Shown piece after piece: positions 3,758 to 60,369 of a stretch of DNA of 64,000 nt (the stretch's first letter is position 1; each line of letters begins with the position of its first letter). Both the position numbers and the translations under genes were made by a program. Origin of the DNA: an uncultured Faecalicatena sp. GTDB lineage: Bacteria > Bacillota > Clostridia > Lachnospirales > Lachnospiraceae. The DNA lies in assembly GCA_948468385.1 (NCBI GenBank), contig CAOKHZ010000002.1, positions 62,001-126,000 on the forward strand. The letters run 5' to 3'. The notes beneath the pieces were generated by a model that was given only the letters and a program-made list of their open reading frames with translations, made no database searches and was not told where the DNA came from.

Positions 3758-3778
3758 GGTGAAATAAGCGGACGAGGC

Positions 3779-3924
3779 GTTACTATTCACGGGGCTGTGC
3801 GCCCCGCCGCACGGCCACCGGCCGCTAAAGTGATGGTGCCGATTGGGCATTTCGGCCATCGCCGTAGGCGATTTTAAATGGCCGAATGCCGTTACTATCG
3901 CGGCCGCAGGCCGTGAATAGTAAC
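3779..3924. repeat. Structured intergenic element, covarying family, copy 1
   Basis: The outer arms GTTACTATTCACGG (3779-3792) and CCGTGAATAGTAAC (3911-3924) are perfect complements. The centre holds a long stem, GGCATTTCGGCCAT (3846-3859) against ATGGCCGAATGCC (3878-3890). It is capped by CGCC-GTA-GGCG and has a 3'-side bulge of ATTTTAA. The right end, 3891-3924, also folds on itself (GTTACTAT with ATAGTAAC). The element at 60199-60336 has the same layout with different but complementary stem bases. It lies 21 bases after the carB stop. Whether it acts as RNA, as DNA or as a mobile repeat is unknown. Confidence 0.75.
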
Positions 3925-3936
3925 GACGAGGCGACT

Positions 3937-17705: not shown

Positions 17706-17750
17706 GGCCGAATGCCGTTACTATCGCGGCCGCAGGCCGTGAATAGTAAC
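17706..17750. repeat. 45-bp exact copy of the right arm of the element at 3779-3924
   Basis: These 45 bases are identical to 3880-3924. They contain the hairpin GTTACTAT...ATAGTAAC with an inner CGGCC/GGCCG stem. Only the right arm is present, so the terminal hairpin may be an independently mobile or selected unit. Confidence 0.85.
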
Positions 17751-50321: not shown

Positions 50322-50350
50322 GAGTAAGTCCCTCCTTTGATGGTGTTTGG

Positions 50351-50477
50351 CTCCGAGCCAGTCACTACGCTGACTGGCTCGGAGGATGCACGTAAATCTG
50401 GTCGATGCATCGCCCGCTTTGCCAAGGGCAAATGAAAAATGCGGGTGATGCCTATGGCAATTCAGCCCGTGCTGAAT
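50351..50477. repeat. Structured intergenic element, possible third family copy
   Basis: Three stems are present. CTCCGAGCCAGTC pairs with GACTGGCTCGGAG (50351-50384). A central stem is GCATCGCCCGC (50407-50417) with GCGGGTGATGC (50441-50451), enclosing TTTGCC/GGCAAA and a 3'-side bulge TGAAAAAT. ATTCAGC pairs with GCTGAAT (50460-50477). The central stem begins GCAT, ends ATGC and has a 3' bulge, as in the elements at 3779 and 60199. It lies between the divergent truA and aldo/keto reductase genes. Confidence 0.6.
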
Positions 50478-50626
50478 GGTCACTCCTTTGGTGAGGGCGT
50501 GCAATAAAAACATGAAATAGGATATTGCTATCTATGTTTGTTCACGATATAATAAAATTCATTATAACCATGAGGGAAACGAATGTCAACATGGTTCACA
50601 ACTGCAAGAATACGAGGAGGTTCGCT

Positions 50627-59340: not shown

Positions 59341-59793
59341 ATGAAGAATGAAAGTTTGATAAAGATGACAAAGTGGGTGTTGGATTTTATGTTCGTGTCG
59401 GGAATCATTGTGATTGCGACGGTACCGTTTACACTAAAGCTGGCGGGGTTATACTACCAAAGCGAATTGACGAAATACTATGGATTTATGCTGGTGATAC
59501 TGATCGGATCTGGGGTGTGCGGTTTATTAATATTGTGGGAATTGCGTAAGATGATGCGGACAGTGCTGAATAAGAATTGCTTTGTCCGCGAGAATGTGGA
59601 CAGCTTGAAACGAATGGGGATTATCAGCGTCATCGTGGCCCTTATGTATGGAACGAAAATCTTTGTCGTTCCCTCTCCGGCGACATTTATCATTATTTTG
59701 ACGTTCTTTATTGCGGGACTATTCAGCGAGGTGTTGGCGTGTGTCTTTCGCGAGGCGGTACGGTATAAGGAAGAAAACGACCTAACGATATGA
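59341..59793 (+). CDS. DUF2975-family membrane protein
   Basis: This 150-residue membrane protein with four hydrophobic helices matches DUF2975: LWELRKMMRTVLNKNCFVREN in the central loop is the typical signature. Its function is unknown. Such genes nearly always precede a small HTH regulator, as here, and the pair behaves as a regulator with a membrane partner. The start follows AAGGAGAAGGG. Confidence 0.85.
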   Translation: MKNESLIKMTKWVLDFMFVSGIIVIATVPFTLKLAGLYYQSELTKYYGFMLVILIGSGVCGLLILWELRKMMRTVLNKNCFVRENVDSLKRMGIISVIVALMYGTKIFVVPSPATFIIILTFFIAGLFSEVLACVFREAVRYKEENDLTI

Positions 59794-59927
59794 GGCACCA
59801 GAGTCGAAAAGGTCATGCGTTTCATGCCAGCATGAAGACGCATGCATTTGCGACTCGCAAAAACATGAGAAAGAAGCCCGATAGGGCGGATTTCGAATGT
59901 ATTAGGAAAGGTCAAAAGGAGGAAGTC

Positions 59928-60161
59928 ATGGGTATCGTTGTGAATTTGGATGTGATGATGGCGAAACGAAAGATTGGCGTGAAAGAGCTCTCCGAGCAGA
60001 TTGACATCACGATGGCGAATCTTTCGATTTTGAAAAATAATAAGGCGAGGGCCGTTCGTTTCAGCACGTTGGACGCGATTTGCCGGGCACTAAACTGCCA
60101 GCCCGGCGACATACTGGAGTATGTCGAGGACGAGGCGGATGAGATGGAAAAGGAAGGATGA
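59928..60161 (+). CDS. Small YozG-like HTH regulator
   Basis: This 77-residue Cro/XRE-type DNA-binding protein has the HTH (residues 9-65: KRKIGVKELSEQIDITMANL, then FSTLDAICRALNCQPGDILE) followed by an acidic end. It is of the YozG-like class that accompanies DUF2975. ATG at 59928 has AAAGGAGGAAG upstream; the in-frame opening back to 59790 is not used. It probably represses its own operon through the palindrome at 59166-59200. Confidence 0.9.
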   Translation: MGIVVNLDVMMAKRKIGVKELSEQIDITMANLSILKNNKARAVRFSTLDAICRALNCQPGDILEYVEDEADEMEKEG

Positions 60162-60198
60162 GGCAGAAGAAAGAAGAGGCGGATAAGAGAAGATGAGT

Positions 60199-60336
60199 GA
60201 TTACAGTTCAACCAGGTCTGCGCATTTACTGCGCGGACCGCATGAAAACGTGATGGGAAGAAAGCATATGACCCATCGCGAAGCGATTTTTAATGGTCAT
60301 ATGCCCGTTACAGTTCAGCCTTGGCTGAACTGTAAC
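60199..60336. repeat. Structured intergenic element, covarying family, copy 2
   Basis: The layout matches 3779-3924. Outer arms are TTACAGTTCAACC (60201-60213) with GGCTGAACTGTAA. The central stem is GCATATGACCCAT (60264-60276) with ATGGTCATATGC (60293-60304), capped by CGC-GAA-GCG and with a 3' bulge of T residues. A terminal 14-bp hairpin GTTACAGTTCAGCC/GGCTGAACTGTAAC spans 60307-60336. The conserved core CCATCGC...GCGATTTT.AATGG is shared with copy 1, while the stem bases differ in complementary pairs. Confidence 0.75.
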
Positions 60337-60369
60337 GATGAGTGTTTGCGGAAATGGAGGTAGAGCGTA

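Follow-up and report, generated by a model that had tools for sequence, protein, structure and literature searches.

A gene-less mobile element of gut Lachnospiraceae whose folded shape is kept while its sequence changes

The element at 3779–3924 of the window (the whole 64,000-nucleotide stretch of uncultured Faecalicatena sp. DNA analysed here) is one copy of a small gene-less mobile DNA found across gut Lachnospiraceae. Judged from its sequence, the family is a MITE (non-autonomous DNA transposon), a reading that follows from its 8-bp target duplications and from the match of its ends to an IS66-type element. The sequence of the family has changed many times and the folded shape has stayed, which is an unusual degree of structure conservation. 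We hold with good confidence that the MITE is served in trans by an IS66-type transposase and that its fold is kept by selection on the lineages that transpose.

The window contains three copies and one fragment of the family, with the following limits and parts:
3771–3778, no strand: left 8-bp target duplication of copy 1, GACGAGGC
3779–3924, plus strand: MITE copy 1, subfamily A, 146 bp (sequence read, BLAST, direct-repeat check)
3779–3792, plus strand: left terminal inverted repeat of copy 1, GTTACTATTCACGG
3793–3816, plus strand: hairpin 1 of copy 1, 9-bp stem (folding)
3846–3890, plus strand: central hairpin of copy 1 (folding, alignment, covariation test)
3891–3924, plus strand: terminal hairpin of copy 1, an inverted repeat copy and the right terminal inverted repeat
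3925–3932, no strand: right 8-bp target duplication of copy 1, GACGAGGC
17706–17750, plus strand: subfamily A 3′ fragment, central-hairpin end and terminal hairpin
50332–50339, no strand: left 8-bp target duplication of copy 3, CTCCTTTG (by eye)
50340–50482, plus strand: MITE copy 3, subfamily C, decayed ends
50407–50451, plus strand: central hairpin of copy 3 (folding)
50483–50490, no strand: right 8-bp target duplication of copy 3, CTCCTTTG (by eye)
60192–60199, no strand: left 8-bp target duplication of copy 2, GATGAGTG
60200–60336, plus strand: MITE copy 2, subfamily B, 137 bp
60215–60239, plus strand: hairpin 1 of copy 2 (folding)
60264–60304, plus strand: central hairpin of copy 2 (folding)
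60307–60336, plus strand: terminal hairpin of copy 2 (folding)
60337–60344, no strand: right 8-bp target duplication of copy 2, GATGAGTG

Perfect 8-bp direct repeats flank copies 1, 2 and 3 (in copy 3 by eye), and the genes adjoining the copies are unrelated to each other; the fragment lies directly behind an MFS transporter gene. All three copies fold much better than shuffled sequence, with z of −6.4 for 3775–3930 (copy 1), −8.4 for 60195–60342 (copy 2) and −6.1 for 50340–50500 (copy 3). The two elements that an earlier note had placed at 3779–3924 and 60199–60336 are therefore real; the limits of the first are exact, the second begins at 60200, one base after the start it had given, and the third copy it had suggested at 50351–50477 is a decayed family member with limits now set at 50340–50482. 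Its account of how the parts are ordered, of the common core and of the complementary stem changes holds. Its outer arms prove to be the terminal inverted repeats of a transposon, and the pair TTCAACC/GGCTGAA contains one A-C mismatch; its one-base 5′ bulge is present in both elements but at different positions, so that their comparison needs a register shift. What it had missed is the transposable nature of the family, namely the inverted repeats, the 8-bp duplications and the apparent service by an IS66-type transposase.

Complete copies are mostly 131–149 bp long and carry no transposase gene. Their parts stand in a fixed order, with a left terminal repeat (GT[TA]AC..TTCA) followed by hairpin 1, a spacer of ~20–30 nt, the central hairpin and the terminal hairpin, the last formed by an inner copy of the terminal repeat together with the right terminal repeat; the terminal inverted repeats expected of a MITE are thus present. 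Specifically, the central hairpin of copy 1 comprises a variable outer stem, a constant core, a 1-nt 5′ bulge, a triloop and a 7-nt 3′ bulge. Across the family the core, CC-C-ATYGCC-GNA-GGCRAT-TTTAAAT-GG, is nearly invariant, and the outer stem varies freely (for example TGCAAAATC, GCATATGCC, TTCAGGCCG and GCATCCAGC) with an opposite side that matches. Hairpin 1 with the spacer reaches z < −2 in 46 of 59 regions, measured against mononucleotide shuffles. A kissing contact between the hairpin-1 loop AUUUA and the bulge UAAAU, seen in subfamily B, was rejected because by eye it is not kept in subfamilies A and C or in genome G006.

Several variants and neighbours of the family were also observed. 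One copy (L025) joins a subfamily A′ central hairpin to a subfamily A terminal hairpin, pointing to recombination between subfamilies. A hairpin of ~50 nt, containing GTGCCACTGGCAC in the own genome, sits inside the loop of the central hairpin (L026, L027, L029, L030, L032) or of hairpin 1 (L033, L036) and also occurs in L306 of G006, that is, in different copies and species; it may be a nested element with hairpin loops as its target. A second type of MITE, about 190–196 bp long, with end GTTACTTTTCACGGGGTGGGGAAACAAGG and a long inner hairpin, is present in L262, L274 and L276 of the sister genome (G008) and in L247 of the own genome; its ends are alike and its interior different, and the end in L276 differs by one letter. 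Another element type, with end GTTACTGTTCACGGG, lies directly behind a subfamily C copy (L075, G000:C34:26482). Central hairpins also occur without a terminal hairpin, as an array of 55-nt tandem units (3.9 copies; L146:2103–2317) between the end of a purH-like gene and a phosphoesterase-like gene, both identified by eye, and singly before a gene of Pseudobutyrivibrio xylanivorans (L125:4317–4359).

The flanks of the copies bear the mark of transposition. Exact 8-bp target duplications beside matching ends were found at 49 of 119 hits, compared with 0–6 of 118–119 in seven controls in which the right flank was shifted by 12–80 bases; with one mismatch allowed, the count is 62 of 119, compared with 1–6 in the controls. 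Furthermore, among 40 regions fetched from the sister genome, both ends were recognised in 24, and 21 of these carry a duplication with at most one mismatch. The duplications are AT-rich in the middle and differ among near-identical copies. Copy 1 is absent from the orthologous stretch behind carB in G001, and copy 2 from the orthologous stretch before the DUF4153 gene in the sister genome, both with diverged flanks and no clean empty site. Two further roles were considered and rejected: a target-guiding RNA, since near-identical copies have differing duplications that are merely AT-rich, and an intrinsic terminator, since behind the terminal hairpin lies target sequence, which varies by copy and hence offers no fixed U-run. 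In G006, terminal hairpins of about 35 bp stand alone (L307, L309, L310 and L311), by eye with a duplication of their own, such as TCAATAGA in L311; the duplication is perfect in L311, near-perfect in L307 and not evident in L310. The right end can therefore act alone as a minimal element.

The fold is kept across copies that differ widely in sequence. In an alignment of 17 copies, 95.9% of cells pair and the covariation score is 0.314, compared with 0.148 for shuffled alignments. For a larger set of 113 distinct copies the paired share is 96.6%, the score is 0.467, compared with 0.133 for shuffled alignments and 0.02–0.06 for slid structures, and all six standard pair types are seen at one position, in an alignment that was fitted to the covariance model and so leans towards the model structure. 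Because of this leaning, we made a tree-aware test in the manner of R-scape, though not with R-scape itself, using a FastTree tree, parsimony substitutions and APC-corrected G scores, with a null of 60 simulated alignments having equal substitutions per branch in random columns. From 119 rows, 10 were removed as overlaps or as partial or weak matches; removal of identical rows left 103, and removal of those at least 93% alike left 55 sequences of 77 columns, all gathered with the structure model. E < 0.05 was reached by 10 of 2701 column pairs. Each of the 10 belongs to the 31 pairs that make up the fold; six fall in the central outer stem, three in the terminal hairpin and one in the inner stem. 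The compensatory change read by the earlier note from two copies is supported by these pairs, and further copies with covarying stems, on which it had staked its claim beforehand, occur in several genera.

The family is numerous and spread across Lachnospiraceae. BLAST against the host genome, partial pieces included, finds copy 1 at 46 places, copy 2 at 19 and copy 3 at 23. For the 3′ half, a covariance model was made from 17 copies belonging to subfamilies A, A′ and B. It gives 46 matches in the own genome and 62 in the sister genome, and matches 14 of 61 genomes, comprising 10 of the 12 in the genus, with the own genome among them, and 4 of 25 from other genera of the bacterial family; among 24 genomes from other families of the order there was no match. 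The constant-core pattern was found in at least 116 stretches across genome contigs and had one match in viral contigs. The record titles name Lachnospiraceae, individual genera, and Clostridiaceae or Eubacteriales bins; the genera include Parablautia, Murimonas, Schaedlerella, Eisenbergiella, Limivivens, Blautia, Hungatella, Lacrimispora and Pseudobutyrivibrio, all of which we take to belong to Lachnospiraceae. Two titles are outlying, one "uncultured bacterium" (L205) and one alphaproteobacterium (L136); the latter match is taken as chance, as its sequence has neither the flanking stem nor a covariance-model match. A model search of individual loci covered 75 of the 80 listed core-pattern loci and 25 others, with L136 (no match) and four partial-match loci omitted and 36 of the 116 stretches outside the search.

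A candidate partner for the MITE emerged from contig ends. The end GTTACTTTTCACGGGGTGGGGAAATAA lies within about 55 bases of the contig end in 14 contigs of the host genome (G000), the mark of an unassembled multicopy insertion sequence; it continues as GACACGATAATAAGGG in eight contigs and as AATAAATAGAACG in six (some show the first letters only), presumably the two ends of that insertion sequence. An end of this type was found in 3 of 299 genomes of the bacterial family, the own genome counted. In G086, a complete element of 2308 bp (L320:304–2611) has 23 identical bases at both ends and one long frame of 581 aa, which matches DDE_Tnp_IS66 (PF03050; E 1.5e-17, 64.4 bits, Pfam cut-off 23.1) and scores 137 bits against the NCBIfam IS66 equivalog, below the cut-off of 180 bits. 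Past the stop codon, the element's end agrees with the first kind of host contig end (GACACGATAATAAGGG) at 48 of 55 bases. In addition, its first 16 bases recur exactly in five complete MITE copies of subfamily A, so that for this subfamily the ends are common to MITE and complete element.

The genus that carries the partner is not that of the host, whose own copies are unassembled; the host genome retains a 68%-identical piece of such a transposase gene, with no closely matching ends nearby. The single complete copy, flanked by TTTAAAAA and CTTACAGC, has no matching 8-bp duplication and does not contain the MITE central core. A further complete partner was found in none of 297 loci screened apart from L320, and the partner's end in no viral contigs or plasmids. 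The TnpB accessory gene (PF05717) was sought in ten genomes and found in six; the four that lack it are G000, G001, G002 and G014. ISDge4, a member of the ISBst12 group of IS66, has ends GTGACTACTCAGCA/GTAACTGCTCAGCA, an 8-bp repeat and a single ORF, and is reported as the first active transposition in that group (PMC12898284); the MITE in L106 begins GTAACTGTTCAGCA. A classical IS66 was rejected as partner, the IS66 end in G006 beginning GTAAGCG. On the identity of the ends and the 8-bp duplications of the MITEs, the probable mover of subfamily A, acting in trans, is an IS66 element similar to those of the ISBst12 group. No partner was found for subfamilies B and C; the G086 partner has ends unlike those of subfamily B and the G006 copies, so that other transposases are to be assumed for these.

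We next consider what keeps the fold. If copies acted as RNA, single changes that leave G-U should outlast those that leave A-C. Among distinct changes in own-genome copies collected by BLAST, 42 leave G-U and 33 A-C, and in sister-genome copies 17 and 20, giving 59 and 53 when pooled (p 0.64). Copies collected with the covariance model give 108 and 34 in a set of 107 (six rows removed by name, then identical rows) and 51 and 20 in the 55 representatives, an excess of G-U, which the model itself rewards. The near-equality within copies would suit a covariation without function, in which the end arms track one transposase and the palindromes are kept symmetrical by DNA events like template switching in replication. 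Such an origin also fits a terminal hairpin that consists of inverted-repeat copies, and the copy at L116:1501–1579, whose central hairpin lacks both bulges and is a perfect palindrome, as template switching would yield. We nevertheless judge it rather unlikely, for symmetrising would erase the asymmetric bulges, and these persist (C on the 5′ side in 49 of 55 representatives, UUUAAAU on the 3′ side in 40 of 55). The central outer stem, moreover, is not a terminal repeat, and it still provides six of the significant pairs. Finally, in a hand count of 117 copies, 26 of 56 listed cells (17 distinct) are true double changes, and in all 56 the changes are single isolated pairs, never runs, which argues against patch-wise template switching as their source.

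A structured RNA with a function for the host, either a cis-regulator or a small RNA, spread by transposition, is a distinctly less probable reading. Its appeal lies in covariation like that of RNA, one position of which shows all six pair types, the constant core within a variable clamp, the central hairpins that occur without ends (the L146 array and L125, before a gene) and the G-U excess among model-collected copies, which would suit selection on one strand. Against it stand the equality of G-U and A-C changes within copies, the unrelated neighbours of the window copies, the lack of any Rfam family and the orientation of the insertions: relative to flanking frames called by length only, 64 intergenic insertions comprise 25 sense, 17 antisense (p 0.28, no significant bias), 17 divergent and 5 convergent cases, and 4 more lie inside a frame. 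Of the earlier note's proposal of undescribed structured RNA or DNA repeats, the undescribed repeat family thus stands, and a host structured RNA is not favoured, as there is neither a significant orientation bias nor strand-specific selection in inserted copies.

Movement by a Y1 enzyme is not known to leave target duplications. A REP/REPIN or IS200/IS605-type hairpin moved in this way, or an omega-RNA such as HEARO, is suggested by the imperfect palindromes with an extrahelical base and by the high copy number, but is very hard to reconcile with terminal inverted repeats and 8-bp duplications, with a GTAG tag that by eye is not constant beside the hairpin, and with the absence of a HEARO match in Rfam. 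Scarcely credible, too, is the idea that the core is translated as a short peptide, I-A-x-G-[DN]-F-K-W. Its reading frame stays open over nine codons in 85 of 101 distinct anchored copies (2 further copies have no anchor), but the other 16 have a stop, the loop codon occurs in 14 different forms, the stems vary in complementary pairs and no common start codon was noticed by eye.

We therefore return to a MITE served by an IS66-type transposase. The transposase, from an ISBst12-like element with one long gene, would act on the MITE in trans, recognising its ends (GT[TA]AC..TTCA) and inserting it with an 8-bp target duplication; the host's own element would have one long gene, GTTACTTTTCACGGGG at both ends and 8-bp duplications. 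At the right end, the terminal hairpin consists of two inverted copies of the terminal repeat. Because covariation is strong from lineage to lineage and signs of RNA selection are lacking inside copies, it seems that the three-hairpin fold is kept by selection on transposing lineages (masters) and not on single inserted copies. The simplest reading is that lineages that transpose keep the fold and that copies drift after landing. Since pairing shows no strand-specific selection in inserted copies and orientation is not significantly biased, the fold seems to benefit the spread of the element itself and not a host RNA at each site. Its most likely role would be in the element's own life cycle, as a folded strand or an extruded cruciform that aids excision or copying, or tolerance at the landing site. 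More speculatively, the element may be a structure-dependent client of a DDE transposase, a gene-less DNA transposon that needs a folded strand, either RNA or single-stranded DNA, in order to spread, the strand having a constant bulged core and a freely changing, always complementary clamp; the literature searches listed no such combination.

The family is a MITE that is new in detail. At the gathering score, Rfam has no match to the element, and the whole window gives only RF01699, elsewhere. That stretch, 59793–59937 (Clostridiales-1 RNA, 62.1 bits), matches in pieces some 30 places in the sister genome, three of which cluster at the orthologous locus, so that the RNA family, too, behaves as a dispersed repeat here. 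The literature searches, on MITEs, IS66 elements and structured RNA, listed no description of the family. A microbiome RNA screen reports 250 palindromic candidates, among which the family could be (PMC8040213).

Where covariation is seen, a functional RNA is commonly held to be proven. The family described here is mobile DNA whose inserted copies show no sign of RNA selection, and it still passes a tree-aware test for covariation, so that screens for structured RNA can collect families of this kind. Should movement require the fold, it would offer a direct handle on the poorly understood transposition of IS66/ISBst12 elements and on how a transposase chooses non-autonomous elements.

Structured nucleic acid on a mobile element is also known from the HEARO/omega-RNAs and bridge RNAs of IS605- and IS110-type elements. 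These are used by encoded nucleases or recombinases on elements that are not known to leave such target duplications, whereas copies of the present family occupy many unrelated 8-bp targets. REPs are 20–40 bp long with a GTAG or CGTC tag, and REP/GTAG repeats likewise form subfamilies with alternative complementary stem letters and bulged stems (PMC3733652); the present family, by contrast, has full inverted repeats, 8-bp duplications and three hairpins, and neither the GTAG tag nor the lack of target duplication that marks REP/REPIN. Prokaryotic MITEs like QMITE2 are similarly short and gene-less, with terminal repeats, 7–9 bp duplications and a strong predicted fold (PMC10969869). The family described here differs in an interior that is kept by covariation across genera, and neither "covaria" nor "compensatory" occurs in the main text of that MITE review. 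The ISBst12 group, as described for ISDge4, is alike in its 8-bp direct repeat and in ends (GTAACTGCTCAGCA) that resemble those of the MITE (PMC12898284). Our presumed partner likewise has one long gene with an IS66 DDE domain, its NCBIfam score lying under the IS66 cut-off, whereas the MITE is gene-less and carries an internal fold not present in that element.
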